Assembly: GCA_018701175.1 (NCBI GenBank)
Contig: JABIWF010000137.1
Location: 1 to 47,994 of the forward strand
Direction of reading: 5' to 3'
DNA from: Methanobacteriota archaeon
Lineage (GTDB): Archaea; Thermoplasmatota; Poseidoniia; Poseidoniales; Poseidoniaceae
Length of the DNA: 47,994 nucleotides
Shown: positions 19,158 through 28,613 of the stretch, piece by piece
Layout of the letters: every line of letters starts with the position of its first letter
Position numbering within the stretch: the stretch's first letter is position 1
The notes under the pieces: model-generated
Told to the model about the DNA's origin: nothing
Database searches by the model: none
What the model saw: only the letters and a program-made list of their open reading frames with translations
Made by a program: the position numbers and the translations under genes

Positions 19158-19832
19158 ATGAACAGGGCGTGGATGTACATCGGGACCATCGCCCTTGGGC
19201 TTTGGTTTTCTGCTACATCGTGCAACGGCCTGTTGGCCGATGAATACGCTGAATGGCCCGTGAATATTTGGTGTTGGGGCTTGTTTGCTTGGTACTACCG
19301 TTCTGGTGAACGCAAGCAGCGCATCGAAATGCTGACGGTCGTAGCTTTCGCTACACCAATGGAACTCTTCTTCAGCGAAGTGTGGGTTATTTACGAATAT
19401 CAACGAGATCTGATGCCGTTATTCGTTCCTGCCGGTCATTACTTTTTGTTCGACCTTGGAAGGATTTGCGCGGACAAAATCAAAGAGAATTGGGCACTCC
19501 CAATGCTTCTCCCTCTCGTTCCAATCGTCTTCTACGGAGCATGGACCGGCGGCGATACTTCTGCAGTACTGCTTCTCGTATTTGTTCTCATGTTCATCCG
19601 TTTGGGCCCTCAGCCTCGATTGTATGCCGCAATGGTATGGGCAGCGTTGGGAATGGAAATCGTCGGGACGTCTCTCGGAAACTGGACATGGGCAAGTGAA
19701 GTGCCATGGACGGGCCTAACTGCCTGGAATCCACCTCTGTTGGTAGGTTCATTCTACTGTTTAGGTGATTTATTGGTTAATTTGGCAGTCGTCAAGTTTG
19801 AAGGGAAGGACCGATTGGAGGTTCATGCATGA
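19158..19832 (+). CDS. polytopic membrane protein of unknown function
   Basis: A 224-residue protein with about seven hydrophobic helices. Polar signatures within or near membranes include MELFFSEVWVIYEY, VPAGHYFLFDLGR and GNWTWASEVPW; conserved-looking acidic, His and Trp residues in membrane loops suggest an enzyme or cofactor site. GAGGAG lies upstream of the ATG. Its end overlaps the ferredoxin gene by four bases (ATGA). The coupling to a ferredoxin suggests a membrane redox or hydroxylase-type activity, but no family is recognised. Confidence 0.7.
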   Translation: MNRAWMYIGTIALGLWFSATSCNGLLADEYAEWPVNIWCWGLFAWYYRSGERKQRIEMLTVVAFATPMELFFSEVWVIYEYQRDLMPLFVPAGHYFLFDLGRICADKIKENWALPMLLPLVPIVFYGAWTGGDTSAVLLLVFVLMFIRLGPQPRLYAAMVWAALGMEIVGTSLGNWTWASEVPWTGLTAWNPPLLVGSFYCLGDLLVNLAVVKFEGKDRLEVHA

Positions 19833-20161
19833 CCTCATCCGATGAGTTGCGAAAGCGCCGTGAGCAAGAGGCGGTTCGTATACGAACTTCTCTGAACCGT
19901 CTACGGGGCGAACAGCGTGCATCCATCAAAGGAGGGGAGTCGACAGTAGCATTTGTCGAAGAACGCCTTTGCATCGGGTGTGACCAATGCACAATCGTTT
20001 GTGATGACGATGCTATTGAGATGTACAAAGTTGCAATGGCAAGTCCACTTATTCAAGTTGAATCGAATCAAAAAGCGAAAATTTTGCGTGATGATTGCAC
20101 AGGATGTCGACTCTGTGTATTGGCTTGTCCAACAGACGCAATCACAATGATAGACAGATGA
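19829..20161 (+). CDS. ferredoxin with two 4Fe-4S clusters
   Basis: A 110-residue soluble electron carrier. Two clusters are predicted from CIGCDQCTIVCD and CTGCRLCVLACP. In each, three Cys in CxxCxxC plus a fourth Cys three residues on give complete four-Cys sets. An N-terminal basic helix of about 40 residues (ELRKRREQEAVRIRTSLNRLRGE) is an unusual extension and could bind a partner or membrane. It overlaps the preceding membrane protein gene and is nine bases before the next, so the three are probably one functional unit. Confidence 0.88.
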   Translation: MTSSDELRKRREQEAVRIRTSLNRLRGEQRASIKGGESTVAFVEERLCIGCDQCTIVCDDDAIEMYKVAMASPLIQVESNQKAKILRDDCTGCRLCVLACPTDAITMIDR

Positions 20162-20170
20162 GGTGTTTGA

Positions 20171-20461
20171 ATGTCCAAGAATGATAAACAAGATACAGCC
20201 CAACGTTTCGGTGGAGAGTTTGGTCCTTACCGCAAGGAAGGAACACCTGGCGTTTCCCTTTCAACATTCAAGACGCTGGTTTGGACCTCGAACATTGGTG
20301 GAATGCTGCTTGTGGTCATTGCGCTGGAAATGCTCTTTGTGCGACAAATGTTTGGTTGGGGTCTTGCATCTCTCATTCTCGGGGTTTTGATTGCACTGTT
20401 CCCGTCGAACTATGAAATCACAGGGATGGACGAGGGTCAGTCGCCACCATCAGGCGATTAA
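20171..20461 (+). CDS. two-helix membrane protein of unknown function
   Basis: A 96-residue protein with a polar N-terminus (RFGGEFGPYRKEGTPG), two close transmembrane helices (GGMLLVVIALEMLFV and LASLILGVLIALF) and an acidic C-terminus. It follows the ferredoxin gene by nine bases, and its stop abuts the stop of the convergent SAP-domain gene. The context suggests a membrane anchor or partner for the ferredoxin. No family is recognised. Confidence 0.65.
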   Translation: MSKNDKQDTAQRFGGEFGPYRKEGTPGVSLSTFKTLVWTSNIGGMLLVVIALEMLFVRQMFGWGLASLILGVLIALFPSNYEITGMDEGQSPPSGD

Positions 20462-21285: not shown

Positions 21286-24114
21286 TTAAGCTTCGACTTC
21301 TGTGACTGTGATCACTTCAGTAGCAGCCTTTGCTTTCTTTGCTTCGACTTGCCGTGCGAGGAAGGAAACAACATCGAGAATTTCAATGTCTTCGTAACGT
21401 TCGTCACCCTCAAACTTGAGGCATTCAAAGTGAGATACACACTTCGGGCAAGAAGTGAGCATGGTGTCCGCTCCAGTTGCTCGGATTTCTTCCATGCGTG
21501 TTACACGCAGTGAACGAGCATTCTCGTTGCATGACATCATACTGGATACACCGCAACACATTGCGTCTTCACCGTGGTGTTCCATCTCGACGATTTCCAC
21601 ACCTTCGACACCAGCAATGAGTTCACGAGGTTCTTCGTAGATACCCATTTGTCGGCCAAGGCGGCACGGGTCGTGGTAGGTCACCGTGGTTTCTTCCTCA
21701 GCCTTGAGGTTCATGTCAAATCCGTTTTCGATGAGGAACTCTGTCGTGTGCATGACTTTGACACCTTCAAGTTCGTAGTCTCGAGCGAAGGTTCGGAAAC
21801 ATTCAGCACAAGATGAGACGAGAGTGTCAATTCCAGACTGTTCAATCTTCTTTTGATTGTAGGCCTTAAGTTTCTCAAAGACTTCATCGAGGCCTTGCCA
21901 CTTTTGGTCGTGACCACAGCACTTGAGGAAGTCACGGCCAAGGTAGGATACATCCATCTCCATCTCATCAAAGAGGGTGAATGCAGATGTAGTCGCATCG
22001 CCAAGGTTCATTTCTCCCTCATTGACATGTGAGAATACCATTTCTTGGTCGAGGTAATCGACACAGCCAGGGTAGTAACCGATGTTCGAGGTAAGCGGGT
22101 AATCTTCGACAGCGACGAAGTCTTCGTTTGCTGCTTCTTCTGCTTCAGCGGCAAGAACAGCTTGAAGGACGGTGTGAGCAATTTCTGCTTGTGGTCCACC
22201 GACAATGAGTGAGCGACGAATATCGACGTAAGAGTCGTAATTGACCAGTTGTGGGCAGGCATTGGTACATGCTGTACAGGTTAAACACGAATAGAGAGGA
22301 ACGCCATCATCCTCATTGTTCCATGAGTTGTAGATGATGTTGAGTTTGTCTCCACCGTTGAACAAACGGACAGGACACGCATCATCACAAAGGTCACATC
22401 CGTAGCACTTGTTCATCTCGAACTCGTATCCTCGTCCCATCGAGCGTAAGACGACGAAGACGATTGCTCCGAAGGTCAAACATGGAATGAACATTGCGTA
22501 GGTGAGTTTGGCGTCAAGCGCCTTTGGGTTCGTGTGATAGGTCGGGTTTTCAATGGCTGCAAAGCTTGTTCCACCTGCTGCCATGTCTGTCGAACTGGAG
22601 AGGTTCACAGTCGTTCCTGCAAGTGCAGTTGGCGCACCTTCTCCCCAAACAAGGAGCGGCTGGAAGGTTGCGATACTGAAGGCAGTCTCTGTTTGGATAC
22701 TGTTGTTGAGAGCTAGAGCACCACTTGCTGCGACCGTGTATTCGTAGGAATAGGTGCCAACTGGTAGTTCTACAGTTGCTCCAGCACAGTTGTCAAAAGT
22801 TGAAACGACCTTGCCTTTGTTATCGGTCACGGTCAATGTTGTTGCGATCATCGATGCTGTAGAGATGTCGTTAATCTTACGCTCTGAAGAACGGTACTCA
22901 CAGCTGAGGTCGGTCGTAAGCGTCTCGATGGATTCGTGGTGGCCGTCCGGGAAGAGGGATGTGTCTTCGGTCACAGTGAATGTCCCGATATCGATCCATC
23001 CGTCTCCGCCGTTGAAGGTTGTACTGCCAGCAGCAGCATTGATGCCGTTTGCAGCGTCTTGGTGGCCGTTTGCATCGTTGAAGTCAATGATGATGTAACG
23101 GGCAGGTTGGTAAATCATCCAATCGAGCCAAGCGGTTGTCGGAACAATTTCTGTATCACTCCATCCACGTTCGTCGGTAAATTCGTTTGTTGCGTGAACA
23201 TGAACATCTGTTGGCTGCGTACGCATTGCCTCAAGTTCAGGATAGTAGTCATGCGTGAGGCCCTTGATGGTGAGCAAACCGCCTTGGTCCCAGAACCCAT
23301 CGTCGTAGGTGTCCCATGTTGCCACAGTTCCTGCTGTTGAAATCAACAAAGTGCCGATAAGGATTTGCTTGGCATGGCTTGGCTTGAAACCAGCACCCCA
23401 TGCTTTAACCATCATTCCACGAGCGAGGAAATAGAAACATATCCATGCTAATACTCCAGTCATTACCCAAGGAATCGTGTTGAAGGCTTCTGCCACCCAT
23501 GGTTCACGAACACCACACAAGAGGTCGCCGTGACTGTCCAGTTTACAGTAATCTGAACGGTTCTTTTCATACAGTTCCAAGAAGATATTAATCGAGAACA
23601 CAGATATGAACCAAATGTGTGCGAGGTAGACTGCACCTGCTGTGGCGAACCACGGGTCTTCCACTGGTCGCTTTTCACGACCGCCGAGGAAAGGTGGTAG
23701 TGCGAGGATGCTTACTGGGATTCCGGTAAGTGCAGCGCCCCACCATGCAGCGTTCCATGGGAACACAGGTTGGCCGACGATTTCACCGATGAATCCTGTT
23801 GGGACTGTAAATTGTGGCAAGTATTCACCCCATCGAAGGTATCCGTAGGAAAACAACACATACCAATCAGGGAAAACGAAACCTGCTTGAGCATATGGAT
23901 CTGCCGCACCGTGCAATGGTGGTGGAATCAACCAGGCATAGAACAACAATACTGCTGCCATGAACGACAGAAGAATCGTGTCACGCAGAACTTCATGAGG
24001 CCAGAAGCCGTGACCGGTTCGCGTGCGAGTTCGCTTTCCAGCAACCTCTTGCAATTGTTCTTTCTCCTCCATGTATGAAGAAGCAACACGTCCGAAATTT
24101 TCGATTAGTCCCAT
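21286..24114 (-). CDS. cytochrome b6f subunit IV-like domain fused to HdrD-like iron-sulfur protein
   Basis: A 942-residue fusion, last gene of the Rieske/cytochrome b operon; GGAGG lies seven bases before the ATG. Residues ~30-185 resemble cytochrome b6f subunit IV: FWPHEVLRD (family WPNDLL), two helices around the quinol-site motif FPDWY at 81-85 (family PEWY), and a third after REKRPVEDP. Two more helices follow (~215-280), then an unrecognised ~250-residue, probably extracytoplasmic, beta-rich domain, and a helix at about 540. The cytosolic end carries two ferredoxin-type clusters (C570/573/576/580 and C610/613/616/620). Two CCG domains follow (FLKCCGHD...SSCAEC and DAMCCGVS...TSCPKC), as in HdrD and GlpC, which hold noncubane 4Fe-4S clusters in HdrD. 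Electrons could pass between the quinol site and a cytosolic thiol/disulfide or carrier. Confidence 0.88.
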   Translation of the reverse strand: MGLIENFGRVASSYMEEKEQLQEVAGKRTRTRTGHGFWPHEVLRDTILLSFMAAVLLFYAWLIPPPLHGAADPYAQAGFVFPDWYVLFSYGYLRWGEYLPQFTVPTGFIGEIVGQPVFPWNAAWWGAALTGIPVSILALPPFLGGREKRPVEDPWFATAGAVYLAHIWFISVFSINIFLELYEKNRSDYCKLDSHGDLLCGVREPWVAEAFNTIPWVMTGVLAWICFYFLARGMMVKAWGAGFKPSHAKQILIGTLLISTAGTVATWDTYDDGFWDQGGLLTIKGLTHDYYPELEAMRTQPTDVHVHATNEFTDERGWSDTEIVPTTAWLDWMIYQPARYIIIDFNDANGHQDAANGINAAAGSTTFNGGDGWIDIGTFTVTEDTSLFPDGHHESIETLTTDLSCEYRSSERKINDISTASMIATTLTVTDNKGKVVSTFDNCAGATVELPVGTYSYEYTVAASGALALNNSIQTETAFSIATFQPLLVWGEGAPTALAGTTVNLSSSTDMAAGGTSFAAIENPTYHTNPKALDAKLTYAMFIPCLTFGAIVFVVLRSMGRGYEFEMNKCYGCDLCDDACPVRLFNGGDKLNIIYNSWNNEDDGVPLYSCLTCTACTNACPQLVNYDSYVDIRRSLIVGGPQAEIAHTVLQAVLAAEAEEAANEDFVAVEDYPLTSNIGYYPGCVDYLDQEMVFSHVNEGEMNLGDATTSAFTLFDEMEMDVSYLGRDFLKCCGHDQKWQGLDEVFEKLKAYNQKKIEQSGIDTLVSSCAECFRTFARDYELEGVKVMHTTEFLIENGFDMNLKAEEETTVTYHDPCRLGRQMGIYEEPRELIAGVEGVEIVEMEHHGEDAMCCGVSSMMSCNENARSLRVTRMEEIRATGADTMLTSCPKCVSHFECLKFEGDERYEDIEILDVVSFLARQVEAKKAKAATEVITVTEVEA

Positions 24115-24131: not shown

Positions 24132-24998
24132 TCAATGTGGTTCTGCAATGCCTTGTACCCAGACAATGAATAAGTGAATAATAATTAGAGTTGTAACGAT
24201 GACTGGCAGGATGAATACGTGAATGAAGTACATCCGAGTGACGGTACGCGAGGTCAAAGAGGAACCACTGAACAGCAGGGTTGCGATGTACTTTCCAACA
24301 AGTGGGCTCGAGTTCGCCAAGTTGATTCCGATAACTGCTGCACCGTATGCAAGCGTATCCCAAGGCAAGAGGTAGCCGGAATAGCCAAACACGATGGTCA
24401 AAGCCATGAGTGCAACACCGATTAACCAGTTGAGTTCACGAGGATTGCGGTATGCGCCGGTGAAGTAGACTCGGCACATGTGCAGGAACACACTGGCAAC
24501 CATGAAGTGCGTACACCAGTGATGGACAGCACGGATGATGTAACCGAACGGAAGTTCGGTCATGATGAATTGCATGCTTGCATAGGCTGGTGAAGGGTCT
24601 CCTTCTCCACCAGGAACGTAGTAGATGCCGAGCACTGTTCCGGTGACTACCAAAATGATAAACGACAGGAACGAAATTCCGCCCAAGCAATAGAGTGGAT
24701 ACCAGTACCAAATGATACGGAGTTTGTATTTCTCAGCGTGCGAGAGTGGCATTTGGCGGTGCATGTTGTAGTATGCGCCTTTGGACATGTTCCAGTAGTC
24801 TTGGAGTCGGAAACGAGTGTCGAGCCATGAGAATACCCAAAGGAACAGACGTTCTGCAAAGCCCATTTTGCCGGTTGATTCTACTGCACGTAGAATTTCA
24901 CGGCGTGGCGTGTCGCTGCTTTCTTGACGAAGCGTCAAAGCAACAAGCACCACGACAAAGGCGATGAAAAACCAGAGAACCCAAAACATTGTTGTCAT
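24132..24998 (-). CDS. cytochrome b, b6-type N-terminal half
   Basis: A 288-residue membrane protein that binds two hemes b in the quinol-oxidising complex. Likely ligands are H159 and H173 in one helix (AVHHWCTHFMVASVFLHMCR; 14 apart) and H260 and H275 in another (YFIHVFILPVIVTTLIIIH; 15 apart). The 15 spacing is that of cytochrome b6 rather than mitochondrial-type b. GYSGYLLPWDTLAYGA is the conserved quinol-site region. An extra N-terminal helix (MFWVLWFFIAFVVVLVALTL) and a ~60-residue polar stretch precede the standard start. The missing C-terminal half is supplied by the downstream fusion gene, 17 bases away. A GAGGTG Shine-Dalgarno sequence is present. Confidence 0.93.
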   Translation of the reverse strand: MTTMFWVLWFFIAFVVVLVALTLRQESSDTPRREILRAVESTGKMGFAERLFLWVFSWLDTRFRLQDYWNMSKGAYYNMHRQMPLSHAEKYKLRIIWYWYPLYCLGGISFLSFIILVVTGTVLGIYYVPGGEGDPSPAYASMQFIMTELPFGYIIRAVHHWCTHFMVASVFLHMCRVYFTGAYRNPRELNWLIGVALMALTIVFGYSGYLLPWDTLAYGAAVIGINLANSSPLVGKYIATLLFSGSSLTSRTVTRMYFIHVFILPVIVTTLIIIHLFIVWVQGIAEPH

Positions 24999-25009
24999 TT
25001 ATGTTCACC

Positions 25010-25855
25010 TCAGTCACAGTATGTGTACCAGTCGAGATAGTCTACGATGCCCTCGATCACATCGCCATTCAATACAATGGGGATTATGGGGAGTCCAACT
25101 GGGGCAGGGCCTCCAGCTTTTCGAATTCCCGCATACTTGAATGTGGAACCGTTTGACCGGTTTCGGTTGGTGTTCATCTCCAAAACAGTTGGATCAAACC
25201 GTGAAGAGTGGCATATGCAGAAGAGTTTGGTTCCACCGTCGTCTCCACCGCCAGGTGTCCAAGAGTCTTCAGTGAATGAGTTTGAAACAAGTTGCCATCC
25301 AGGGATGCAACAAAGATGCGTACATCGTCCGAAAATCATCACTAAGTTGTCAGATGGGAGAAGTCGTGGGTCTGCATCGCTCAAGTCTTCAAAGTGGCCG
25401 ATGGTTTTTCCTGTTTCATCGACTCCTTCGGTAAATTGGAAACGGGCCTTGCCGTTCGAGGTTGGAGAGGAGGCGTATTCGCTGTGAGTGACGTAGGTGA
25501 CGACGACAGGGACGCCGTTCCAAATTCCAGAAGCGCCAGATGTGCCGGTGTTGGATTTAGCAGCTTCATCAACAAAATCTTGTCTTGTCATCAGTTGCTC
25601 GTGCTTTGCACCGTACCAAGCTTCGTCCTCACGCCCCTTTGCCCAGAACTTTACGCCAAGTTCACCTTCGTTGCTGCCTCCAGGTGGGAGCAGAATTGCT
25701 GCAAATCCGAGGACGCCGAGTGAGGCAGCCAAAACGCCAGTGGCAGTATTGAATCCGTAGCGGAGGAATTGGCGTCGATTAATCGACGAGGAGATTGATG
25801 CGACGCCTGCTTCCCCTGCAGACGGTGCTGGTTTGAGGTCATATTCACGTGCCAT
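25010..25855 (-). CDS. Rieske 2Fe-2S protein with twin-arginine-type anchor
   Basis: A 281-residue protein. The N-terminal INRRQFLRYGF plus a hydrophobic helix (VLAASLGVLGFAAILL) is a twin-arginine signal anchor, as usual for Rieske proteins exported folded. Cluster ligands are C178 and H180 in CTHLCC, and C213 and H216 in CICHSS; C183 and C215 would form the stabilising disulfide. C182 replaces the Gly of the usual CTHLGC, giving an extra cysteine. The domain is long (about 100 residues before box 1, with insertions). It would move electrons from quinol at the cytochrome b subunit to an external carrier. It lies 11 bases before the cytochrome b gene. Confidence 0.95.
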   Translation of the reverse strand: MAREYDLKPAPSAGEAGVASISSSINRRQFLRYGFNTATGVLAASLGVLGFAAILLPPGGSNEGELGVKFWAKGREDEAWYGAKHEQLMTRQDFVDEAAKSNTGTSGASGIWNGVPVVVTYVTHSEYASSPTSNGKARFQFTEGVDETGKTIGHFEDLSDADPRLLPSDNLVMIFGRCTHLCCIPGWQLVSNSFTEDSWTPGGGDDGGTKLFCICHSSRFDPTVLEMNTNRNRSNGSTFKYAGIRKAGGPAPVGLPIIPIVLNGDVIEGIVDYLDWYTYCD

Positions 25856-25861
25856 TTTAGA

Positions 25862-26308
25862 TCACCACTTGTATTCCTTCCAGTCTTTCTGGTGTTCCGG
25901 AACGAACTTGTTCATTCCGTGCTTGACAATGATGGTGTCAGGCAAAACGAATTTGAGGTAAGCCATACCCATCAAGCAGAGCGTGACGAGCATCATGGCG
26001 ACGTGGTAGGCGAGTTGCTGTTGGTCCCAGCCCTTGGCGAGTCCGTAAATCATTGAGAACACCCAGAAGCAAGACCAGAATATACCCCACACGAAGAAAG
26101 CCATAATGAGGTTTGAGCCACCTGATGGAGCAAGGGATGCACTGACAATAGTGCCGGATTCTGCTAGATTGAAAACACCGTGGTCAATCGCAGATTGCAT
26201 TTGATCTTCGGTAAGAGATGCATCTTCCAATGCGGTTCGGGCATCTTCCACGCTGACTTTTCCACTGGCGACCTTGCGAAGTAGGGTCGTGATTGTATCG
26301 TCCATCAT
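25862..26308 (-). CDS. two-helix membrane subunit of the Rieske/cytochrome b operon
   Basis: A 148-residue protein. The N-terminal cytosolic helical region (TTLLRKVASGKVSVEDARTALEDASLTEDQMQSAI) resembles a small helical adaptor. Two transmembrane helices (IMAFFVWGIFWSCFWVFSMIYG and YHVAMMLVTLCLMGMAYLKFV) and a polar, Lys/Trp-ending tail follow. Its start overlaps the stop of the preceding gene, with GAGGTG close by; ATG at 26305 is an alternative. The Rieske gene begins six bases downstream. The tight packing makes a structural subunit of the complex likely. No family is recognised. Confidence 0.7.
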   Translation of the reverse strand: MMDDTITTLLRKVASGKVSVEDARTALEDASLTEDQMQSAIDHGVFNLAESGTIVSASLAPSGGSNLIMAFFVWGIFWSCFWVFSMIYGLAKGWDQQQLAYHVAMMLVTLCLMGMAYLKFVLPDTIIVKHGMNKFVPEHQKDWKEYKW

Positions 26309-27144
26309 TGGTCACCTCTTCGCATGAGTTTGTATCGCAATCGAAGTTGATTGGTTCGTCCTGAGTAGGATGTGGAGAAACTGTATCGCAGCATTAATCC
26401 GGCGAAAATAATTACGAGAATAACTGCGCCAAATCCGAGTAAACCGAGCCAGTGTGCTCGAAGTTCAGCACCCATGTGTTCGAGGTCGACGCCGCTGTGA
26501 GCTGGCTCTGGAGGGCTGACGTTTCCATCACCGGCAAAGAGTGTTCGAGTACCAAGTGCTGTTGTCGTATCGCTCCCCTCTTGAAGGGAGAAAAGCAATT
26601 GATTCCACTTGTCTTCTTGGCCGCCTGCGTTGTTGAGTTGGTCACCGTTCACTGCGTTCCCAGTAATCCAAAAGTTGACAACTCCAGAGTCGGATGCAGG
26701 TGCTTGCCATGTGATGGTCCAAAGCCGTTCTGGCTCATCTGCGGTTGCCTCTGTGTGGGTGAGGGTGGTGACGTCTTCGTCCCAATTTTGAACTCCTTCC
26801 CCTCCAAGAACGCCATCCGTTGTGCGAATTGCGAATCCTGCAGTGTAGACGCCTGATGCCGGTGGTCCTCCGATGATTTGGAGCGTCATGGTGTATGTTT
26901 CTCCACCAATCCATCCGTACGGCACATCGTCGAGGATGATTTGAACAGAGTTGTCGGCTGCTTCGTTGTGGCAAAGACAACCCTCTTTCGCAACATCGTC
27001 GATGGTTTCTCCAGCATTGTCTTGAGCACCTCCTACGCCGCTGTGAAGCGAAGTAGCAAAGCCCGGGACGAGCAGTAAAATCGCTAGCGCGAGCACTACT
27101 CCCGAACGTGTGGAAAATGAGTTCCTTAGCATAGCCTCACCCAT
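26305..27144 (-). CDS. secreted, C-terminally anchored protein with CxCH motif and Reeler-like domain
   Basis: A 279-residue protein, first gene of the Rieske/cytochrome b operon. It has a signal peptide (VVLALAILLLVPGFATSLHSG), then C56-L-C58-H59 in KEGCLCHNEA, and a beta-sandwich region with Y-G-W-I-G-G-E-T-Y-T and 'GVYTAGFAIRT' patterns reminiscent of Reeler-type domains. A C-terminal transmembrane helix (LGLLGFGAVILVIIFAGLML) and a basic cytoplasmic tail follow. CxCH has one residue fewer than the CxxCH heme c motif, so covalent heme is not assured; a metal site or atypical heme is possible. By position it could replace cytochrome c1/f or dock the external acceptor. ATG at 27132 is an alternative start. 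Confidence 0.75.
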   Translation of the reverse strand: MGEAMLRNSFSTRSGVVLALAILLLVPGFATSLHSGVGGAQDNAGETIDDVAKEGCLCHNEAADNSVQIILDDVPYGWIGGETYTMTLQIIGGPPASGVYTAGFAIRTTDGVLGGEGVQNWDEDVTTLTHTEATADEPERLWTITWQAPASDSGVVNFWITGNAVNGDQLNNAGGQEDKWNQLLFSLQEGSDTTTALGTRTLFAGDGNVSPPEPAHSGVDLEHMGAELRAHWLGLLGFGAVILVIIFAGLMLRYSFSTSYSGRTNQLRLRYKLMRRGDQ

Positions 27145-27351
27145 GTGAATAGACCCACCAGTAAGTGCCCCTTAAACATTCCCAGCAAAAACCATCGGCA
27201 ACATCAACGCAGTGAGTCGATTATAAACGAAATCGGGGGTTCTTAAATCGTTCGTTGTCGATACCAACCTTTCCTTTGAAATTTCACTGTTTTGAGCACT
27301 TTTGACACGAGAGTTCATCTATCGATGACGTCTGGGGTGAATGGGTATCGC
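27145..27351. promoter_or_regulatory. divergent promoter region of the Rieske/cytochrome b operon and the TPR gene
   Basis: On the plus strand, TTATAAAC (27221-27228) is a good TATA box and TTCTTAAATCG (27240-27250) a weaker one. On the minus strand, an AATGTTTAAGG element (about 27172-27182) sits roughly 30 bases before the operon's first ATG. No Shine-Dalgarno sequence is seen just before that ATG, so a short-leader or leaderless transcript is possible. No operator-like repeat is evident. Confidence 0.4.
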
Positions 27352-27645
27352 ATGGCAGCACATTTTGACAACACCTACGAACTTTCTCCCGAACAACTTG
27401 AGCAACTCGATCAGGCTGAGGAAATGATGCTCCGCAATGACCTTGGAGCGGCGGAACGGCTTCTGCTCTCGATGCTTGAGGGAGATGGTGAATGCATCCC
27501 CGTCTTATCCAATCTTGGACATCTTTATGGCCGCCATCTTTCCGAATTCGAAACCGCCATTGAGTATTACGACCGAGTCCTCTCGCTCGAGCCAGATAAT
27601 GCATGGGCAAGAGACGCTCGACGACGATACCTCCGTTACGTTTGA
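27352..27645 (+). CDS. TPR-repeat small protein
   Basis: A 97-residue helical protein with about two tetratricopeptide repeats. LDQAEEMMLRNDLGAAERLLLSML is followed by LSNLGHLYGRHLSEFETAIEYYDRVLSLEPDNAWARD, a textbook TPR pair (L.NLG..Y......A...Y..AL.L.P.N). TPRs bind other proteins. ATG at 27352 is preferred because the repeats start soon after it; ATG at 27325 and TTG at 27292 are in frame. It precedes the FtsZ-like gene by 50 bases on the same strand. Confidence 0.75.
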   Translation: MAAHFDNTYELSPEQLEQLDQAEEMMLRNDLGAAERLLLSMLEGDGECIPVLSNLGHLYGRHLSEFETAIEYYDRVLSLEPDNAWARDARRRYLRYV

Positions 27646-27695
27646 GCACGTCAATCACAGCCAAAGTTCATTGAGGTTCGGCTGAATGGTCGTTC

Positions 27696-28613
27696 ATGGA
27701 AGCCTCTCACATCCTCATTGCTGGTGTGGGTGGACTTGGCTGTTCCTGGGCCAAAGGTGCTCACCTTCGTTGTGAAGGAAATGCCGACCTCTGTCTGGTC
27801 GATGCGGATGATGCGAGTTTTACTGACAGTGGATCTGCACATCTTCTTCGGCTTGGCCATGCCCTTGATTCGGTCGGTTGTGCGGCACTCCCTCCGCTGG
27901 CTGAACAAAGGATGCGGGGTTACTCTTCTCTGGCCCGAACGGTACTCGAACCTGTCGAGTTGGTCTTGTTGTTGACTGGACTTGGTGGCGGAACAGGCAC
28001 GGGTGCTGCCCATGAATTTGCTCGCCAAGCACGGCAATCCGGGGCAATTGTAGTTGCCGTTGCCGCTCTTCCGTTTGATGTCCAAGAAACACGTGCCGAA
28101 ATCGCTCAGGAAGGTCTTCAGCGGCTTGAGAAAATTTCTCACGTGACCGTTCGCTTGTCTTTGGAGCGTCTTGCACGGCAAGCGCGAGAGCGAGGCAAAG
28201 CGTGGCAGATGGGAGCTGAGTGGGTTGAAGACTTGGTGGAAGGATTGGTTCGAACACTGATGCGTATGGGACTCATCAATCTGGACCTCATGGATTTGCG
28301 GGCCATCGTCGAAAAAGAAGGCGAGGCTACACTCCTTGTCGGCACCGGTCGACCTGACGACCCGGAGGGCATCTTGCAATCTGCACTCATGGCACCACTG
28401 GCTGAACTGGATGTGGGTGGTGCTCAAGGCTGCTTGATTCAGGTTGAAGGTGGAATTGGTATGACTATTGGTCAAGTCGATGAAGTTGCAAACATGTTTA
28501 CTGAAGCACTGGACCCGAATGCTCAGGTCATTTTGGGCGCTCGAGTCAGCGATGATCTTGAAGATACCATCCGAGTCGTAACTTTGCTCTCAGGCATCCG
28601 TAGTGATGCTTAG
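27696..28613 (+). CDS. divergent FtsZ/tubulin-superfamily GTPase
   Basis: A 305-residue protein. GVGGLGCSWAKG at the N-terminus corresponds to the FtsZ GVGGGGxN loop, GLGGGTGTG at 95-103 is the tubulin signature, and INLDLMDLR matches the T7 loop NxDxxD that completes GTP hydrolysis in polymers. The C-terminal region (GGIGMTIGQVDEVANMFTEALDPNAQVILGARVSDDL) follows FtsZ. The N-terminal domain is shorter and diverges between residues 30 and 80, and no C-terminal membrane-anchor peptide is visible. It could be the cell's division FtsZ, a CetZ-like paralogue or a separate group. Its last four bases overlap the convergent membrane protein gene. Confidence 0.82.
   Translation: MEASHILIAGVGGLGCSWAKGAHLRCEGNADLCLVDADDASFTDSGSAHLLRLGHALDSVGCAALPPLAEQRMRGYSSLARTVLEPVELVLLLTGLGGGTGTGAAHEFARQARQSGAIVVAVAALPFDVQETRAEIAQEGLQRLEKISHVTVRLSLERLARQARERGKAWQMGAEWVEDLVEGLVRTLMRMGLINLDLMDLRAIVEKEGEATLLVGTGRPDDPEGILQSALMAPLAELDVGGAQGCLIQVEGGIGMTIGQVDEVANMFTEALDPNAQVILGARVSDDLEDTIRVVTLLSGIRSDA

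Follow-up and report, generated by a model that had tools for sequence, protein, structure and literature searches.

The window, the whole stretch of 47,994 nucleotides analysed here, comes from a genome of the Poseidoniales, one of the most abundant groups of archaea in the plankton. On its minus strand lies a gene in which a domain related to subunit IV (PetD) of the cytochrome b6f complex is joined, in a single frame, to an iron-sulfur module of the heterodisulfide reductase (Hdr) type. Directly upstream, on the same strand, are the genes for a cytochrome b6, a Rieske protein, a DUF7318-like protein and a choice-of-anchor-V protein. The features of the locus are as follows.

21286..24114, minus strand: PetD-HdrCB fusion gene, an open reading frame (ORF) of 942 amino acids with an ATG start and without an internal stop
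23389..24114, minus strand: subunit IV (PetD)-like domain, residues 1-242 (family profile and PF00032)
23860-23871, minus strand: PDWY motif, fusion residues 82-85
22522..23301, minus strand: extracytoplasmic insert, residues 272-531 (about 260 residues), a predicted beta-sandwich (AlphaFold2, Foldseek)
22438..22521, minus strand: last transmembrane helix, residues 532-559, running into the Fe-S domain (hydropathy and model)
22240..22419, minus strand: HdrC-like 2[4Fe-4S] domain, residues 566-625 (Fer4 families, HdrC chain matches)
21349..22089, minus strand: HdrB-like domain with two CCG motifs, residues 676-922 (PF02754 twice, Foldseek)
24132..24998, minus strand: cytochrome b6-like four-helix cytochrome b (Pfam Cytochrome_B, PF00033, 5e-42)
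25010..25855, minus strand: Rieske 2Fe-2S protein with a Tat-like signal and CTHLCC and CICHS boxes (TIGR01416, 2e-10)
25862..26308, minus strand: small membrane protein, weakly DUF7318-like (PF24002, E 0.0015, below the cut-off; conserved position)
26305..27144, minus strand: choice-of-anchor-V protein, occupying the operon position of cytochrome c1/f (NF041895, 6e-21)
19829..20161, plus strand: 2[4Fe-4S] ferredoxin (RnfB-like), a conserved neighbour (Fer4_21, 2e-14; rnfB, 4e-12)
20171..20461, plus strand: small membrane protein of 96 amino acids, paired with the ferredoxin (conserved pairing)

Taken by itself, the PetD region of the window (the N-terminal 240 residues) falls below family cut-offs, and a profile built from its close relatives matches b6f subunit IV weakly (E 0.056). 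A profile that also includes distant relatives from the phylum (A6) matches the C-terminal halves of cytochrome b with an E-value of 5.5e-12 and b6f subunit IV with one of 2e-9. PF00032 matches 11 of 19 members of the PetD family and scores 39 bits, against a cut-off of 20.7, on a compact fusion from a related lineage (L098). By transitive homology through the distant-relative profile, the N-terminal domain is confirmed at the level of sequence as a true homologue of PetD. Subunit IV of b6f is not among the top 50 Foldseek matches of the whole predicted structure, and it is therefore on the profiles that this identity rests.

The remainder of the protein is recognized more directly. Pfam detects two CCG domains (1.2e-22), as well as Fer4_8 and related families (3e-7); the ferredoxin-type motifs occupy residues 570-580 and 610-620, and the CCG cysteines are residues 684, 732/733 and 769/772 in the first domain (CCG1) and 817, 853/854 and 889/892 in the second. 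Matches to curated HdrB and HdrC models lie below the curated cut-offs, and the best sequence relative in the PDB is mycobacterial EtfD (profile 4.3e-27). Foldseek searches with the fusion model return EtfD (1.3e-14), LutA (1e-9) and HdrB (about 1e-7, with a TM score by target of about 0.64-0.69). Both sequence and predicted fold thus support an HdrC plus HdrB, or HdrD-like, module. No flavin domain was found in the fusion by Pfam scan. ORF, Pfam and profile evidence agree that the fused frame reported in a preliminary description of this DNA, with its PetD-like and HdrD-like parts, insert, two ferredoxin motifs and two CCG domains, is real.

An AlphaFold2 model built from an alignment of 101 rows has a mean pLDDT of 80.5 and a pTM of 0.52, against a mean pLDDT of 49.5 from 20 close sequences. 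Within this model the insert is mostly at 80-93 and the HdrC region is of low confidence (about 55). By Foldseek, the insert-like beta-sandwich bears a weak resemblance to p24 GOLD domains. Hydropathy analysis of the window protein indicates helices E, F, G and H, one further helix, the insert on the p-side of the membrane and the last helix, while compact versions of the protein have helices E, F, G and H. In both the insert-bearing and the compact forms an even number of membrane spans separates a cytosolic N-terminus from the Hdr module; with the PDWY motif on the p-side, this count would place the Hdr module in the cytosol in either version. The module is accordingly predicted to lie on the cytosolic (n) side, and the cytosolic placing of the Fe-S module put forward in the preliminary description is borne out by hydropathy and model alike.

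That the architecture is an artefact of assembly or binning, or that adjacent genes were joined by chance, can be given practically no weight. Nothing was found in favour of this explanation, and it was rejected, as the fusion recurs in 139 distinct ORFs, in both families of the Poseidoniales and in other classes, including one single-contig genome (G074) and one single-cell genome (L165). All 60 related genomes searched contain a homologue, mostly the full-length fusion; the count includes a few in which just a contig-end fragment or just a paralogue was matched. In a survey of 390 genomes of the phylum Thermoplasmatota, the PetD profile matches 144, and the fusion is present in almost all Poseidoniales, where its length is about 920-990 residues. 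All 80 of the matches listed in a search of named contigs are from Poseidoniales. No fusion was found in a search of plasmids, and two haloarchaeal plasmid operons are without it.

Beyond the Poseidoniales, relatives hold the PetD and Hdr parts either fused or adjacent. In f3, a sister lineage within the same class, PetD is fused to an HdrC-like domain, HdrB is the next gene, and a four-cluster ferredoxin follows. Two lineages from one other small class, f22 and f25, have compact fusions of 789 and 606 residues, respectively. The extracytoplasmic insert is missing from the relatives in all three lineages (L085, L089, L098). In f25 the fusion is followed by an ORF of 511 residues that resembles HdrA-MvhD and lacks most of the HdrA flavin region. 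This combination of an HdrA N-terminus, a ferredoxin part and an MvhD domain, without most of the central flavin region, lies directly after a PetD-Hdr fusion at L125:757-2292 and L098:5435-6379. No Hdr part was found with PetD-cytochrome b in a third class (f4, f15, f21 and f23) or in f31, f32 and f39. These Hdr-less PetDs end in a tail, YExxLNxxYxxR, that aligns with the fusion junction, YExxLNxCYxC, which suggests that the Hdr module was lost from them. The tree is compatible with a single origin of the Hdr link (AU p 0.24) and leaves gain versus loss undecided.

The block of cytochrome b6, Rieske, DUF7318-like and choice-of-anchor-V genes on one side of the fusion, with the ferredoxin and the 96-residue membrane protein on the other, occurs in every long Poseidoniales locus examined, bearing out the linkage to cytochrome b and Rieske genes noted earlier. 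It is whole in 57 of the 80 named contigs listed, many of which are short. The ferredoxin gene is co-directional in 44 of these 57 complete blocks and convergent in 13; in most relatives it lies just downstream of the fusion in the same direction, whereas in the window it is on the opposite strand. A larger, four-cluster ferredoxin follows the Hdr genes in f3 and f22, and that of f3 joins an N-terminus like the zinc ferredoxins of Thermoplasmatales to an RnfB-like 2[4Fe-4S] C-terminus (L089, L097, L099, L101 and related loci). No gene for an NAD(P)/FAD oxidoreductase was found among the block genes scanned. Both Cys-His boxes are present in the Rieske protein. The choice-of-anchor-V protein has a conserved GC[TSL]CHN motif (26965-26982, minus strand), found also in f3 and f4, in which the cysteines and histidine are spaced CxCH and not CxxCH; this is possibly the site of an unusual c-type heme or of a metal. 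Divergent from the complex III block, at 27292-28613 on the plus strand, are ORFs of 117 and 305 amino acids that are conserved neighbours across Poseidoniales, the longer of which has a GGGTGTG motif like that of FtsZ and the tubulins.

The cytochrome b of the window carries the motif YWYPxYCLGG, whose cysteine, Cys104 (24687-24689), occupies what we take to be the position of the residue that holds heme cN (ci) in b6f. The four heme-ligand histidines (helix B, HHW..H; helix D, H..H) are present in the window and in the lineages compared. Cysteine is found at the Cys104 position in 154 of 164 cytochrome b sequences that have the motif, repeats included: in all motif-bearing Poseidoniales, in f22 and f25, in half of f3 and in the Hdr-less f31. 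Elsewhere the residue is serine, threonine or alanine. The complex is presumed on this evidence to be a b6f subtype with a predicted heme cN at Cys104. Among the sequences compared, cysteine is present in 12 of 16 that are Hdr-linked and one of eight that are Hdr-less (12/4/1/7), an association that is suggestive and for which no significance is claimed, as only one or two of the pairs are phylogenetically independent, which is too few.

What the Hdr module does may be approached through its cysteines. In complete Poseidoniales fusions the eight ferredoxin-type and ten CCG cysteines (18 in all) are invariant and residue 771 is glutamate; all ten CCG cysteines are present in f22 and f25 as well. 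By alignment, the CCG1 equivalents of Cys733 and Glu771 in EtfD are Thr539 and His583. The cysteine pattern of the fusion is that of Hdr and not of EtfD. Nearly all related genomes also have a separate paralogue in which an Hdr module accompanies a NarI-like region (the NarI match being weak), with serine in place of Cys733 and histidine in place of Glu771, the ligand signature of EtfD.

L047:1149-3188 (contig C106) in the genome of the window, and also L052 and L053: EtfD/EMO-type paralogue

This paralogue is likely to be the ETF:menaquinone oxidoreductase of these archaea, and its Ser/His signature makes it a better candidate for ETF oxidation than the fusion. That the fusion itself could be such an enzyme (EtfD/EMO), with complex III as its anchor, has in its favour that its nearest solved relative is EtfD and that ETF domains occur in the same genome. 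An ETF-specific role for the fusion is nevertheless improbable and was rejected, since the EtfD signature sits on the separate paralogue and not on the fusion.

The retention of the full CCG set raises another prospect, namely genuine thiol/disulfide chemistry in the HdrB part. At its non-cubane clusters a cytosolic dithiol would be oxidized, or a disulfide reduced, and complex III would couple this reaction to the quinone pool, much as HdrDE couples CoM/CoB thiols to methanophenazine. Such a site would fit the invariance of the ten CCG cysteines, some of which are missing from EtfD, and their presence in f22 and f25. Proteins of the LutA, GlpC and SdhE types, however, have full CCG sets without known heterodisulfide activity, and we know of no thiol substrate in these aerobes. 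Moreover, the f3 lineage is one CCG1 cysteine short, with either Cys733 replaced by serine or Cys772 by glycine. Disulfide catalysis at CCG1 is therefore unlikely as a shared function, the role of an electron wire is the safer common denominator, and we consider a thiol/disulfide site a rather poor prospect.

The reading we favour, at a probability of roughly 0.55, is that the locus encodes a Rieske/cytochrome b complex with an Fe-S wire on its n-side, through which electrons would pass between a ferredoxin-like carrier and the Qn site, more probably from the carrier to menaquinone. Subunit IV of this b6-type complex would carry HdrC-HdrB permanently attached on the n-side. The CCG clusters and the two [4Fe-4S] clusters would form a wire that ends where the last transmembrane helix meets the n-side, adjoining the Qn site, heme bN and, in cytochromes b that have the cysteine, heme cN. 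The wire of EtfD is likewise of the HdrD type: its clusters D1-D4 connect to heme b and so to menaquinone (PMC13083937, PDB 9ojn). By analogy with this arrangement, the Hdr clusters of the fusion would lead to the n-side of the complex. The cytosolic partner would be the ferredoxin encoded beside the fusion; a carrier of this type is the likeliest because the ferredoxin gene is a conserved neighbour and has enlarged forms in f3 and f22. Of the three functions offered in the preliminary description (thiol-driven quinone reduction, bifurcation at the quinol site, or exchange with a cytosolic carrier), this neighbour points to the last. Since the HdrD-type modules of aerobes deliver electrons to quinone, flow would more probably run from reduced ferredoxin, or from a protein served by it, to menaquinone at Qn, and complex III would thus also be a point of electron entry. 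A 2-oxoacid:ferredoxin oxidoreductase domain is present in the genome, and NuoF (Complex1_51K) is missing from it and from 54 of 60 Poseidoniales; both observations are consistent with ferredoxin as a major carrier.

The assembly of the complex, the cluster types, heme cN, the ferredoxin partner and the direction of flow are all points that we infer, and several observations weigh against the favoured reading. The ferredoxin may serve another enzyme, and in the window it is not on the same strand as the fusion. In an organism with a ferredoxin-linked complex I, direct transfer from ferredoxin to menaquinone would be wasteful of energy. At the heme cN position, one group of f3 (f3-g23) has serine despite its Hdr parts. 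Finally, given the pTM and the low confidence of the HdrC region, the relative placement of the domains in the model is unproven.

Electrons might also run along the wire in reverse. Bifurcation of menaquinol at Qo would then give the Rieske protein the high-potential electron, while the other, of low potential, would travel by way of the b hemes and the Hdr module and reduce a cytosolic acceptor, be it ferredoxin, a disulfide or, via another enzyme, nicotinamide. Such a scheme has been proposed for the Rieske/b complexes of Kuenenia (PMC12954380), and the truncated HdrA-MvhD-like gene after the f25 fusion could be read in the same way. Against this, an aerobic heterotroph has no obvious need to make reduced ferredoxin, HdrD-type modules of aerobes, EtfD among them, supply the quinone pool, and the HdrA of f25 is without most of its central flavin domain. 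Outward flow of this kind is therefore judged unlikely. A hybrid is tentatively possible, in which complex III would split menaquinol at Qo and its low-potential branch would exchange electrons, through heme cN and the Hdr chain, with a cytosolic ferredoxin or thiol, related archaea adding an HdrA-MvhD-type subunit. If it were so, respiration, the proton gradient and a cytosolic low-potential pool would be coupled in one enzyme.

The Poseidoniales had no cultured member as of a 2019 survey of MGII, in the accessible portion of which cytochrome b and Rieske proteins are noted, canonical bc1 genes are described as lacking and a subunit IV-Hdr fusion is not mentioned (Tully 2019, PMC6336850). The PetD-Hdr fusion explains why complex III was described as non-canonical, and its gene block provides a concrete list of subunits. 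The survey also calls the NADH dehydrogenase canonical (PMC6336850), whereas NuoF was found here in just six of 60 Poseidoniales genomes. No description of a PetD-Hdr fusion was found in the literature searched, most subscription papers lying outside its coverage; the fusion is probably new to the literature, and our genome survey of it covers the Thermoplasmatota.

Several known systems share parts of this design. Like cytochrome b6f (PetA-D), the complex has a four-helix cytochrome b with the heme cN cysteine, a separate subunit IV with a PEWY-like loop and a Rieske protein, but subunit IV of b6f stops after three helices and has no Fe-S module. An input of electrons from ferredoxin to heme ci is no more than a proposal in b6f. 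It has long been asked whether Fe-S carriers of the cytosol can pass electrons to, or take them from, the Qn site (heme cN) in Rieske/cytochrome b complexes; the fusion complex bears on this question and makes it directly testable, since its donor module is covalently attached. The order of the HdrC and HdrB domains and the full set of CCG cysteines are shared with HdrDE of Methanosarcina and with the HdrBC part of HdrABC. In HdrDE, by contrast, HdrE is a NarI-like cytochrome b, there is no Rieske or cytochrome b6 partner, and the substrate is CoM-S-S-CoB. EtfD/EMO, like the fusion, combines a membrane anchor, two [4Fe-4S] domains and two CCG domains in one chain, yet its anchor is NarI-like, with five helices and one heme b, where that of the fusion is PetD-like, and its CCG1 has Thr and His ligands in place of Cys733 and Glu771.

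The closest known analogue is provided by the anammox Rieske/cytochrome b complexes Kuste4569-4574 and Kustd1480-1485, which have an Fe-S/flavin module on the n-side (PMC12954380). They share with the Poseidoniales block a b6-like cytochrome b, a subunit IV with extra helices, heme cN and [4Fe-4S] clusters that wire a module on the n-side to the membrane part, the heme and the wiring being predicted in the archaeal case. The anammox complexes are bacterial and have multiheme c cytochromes on the p-side, and on the n-side they have a separate, FAD-containing NAD(P) oxidoreductase, whereas the module of the fusion is HdrCB joined to subunit IV itself. The Poseidoniales complex may thus be regarded as an archaeal counterpart to those of the anammox bacteria.
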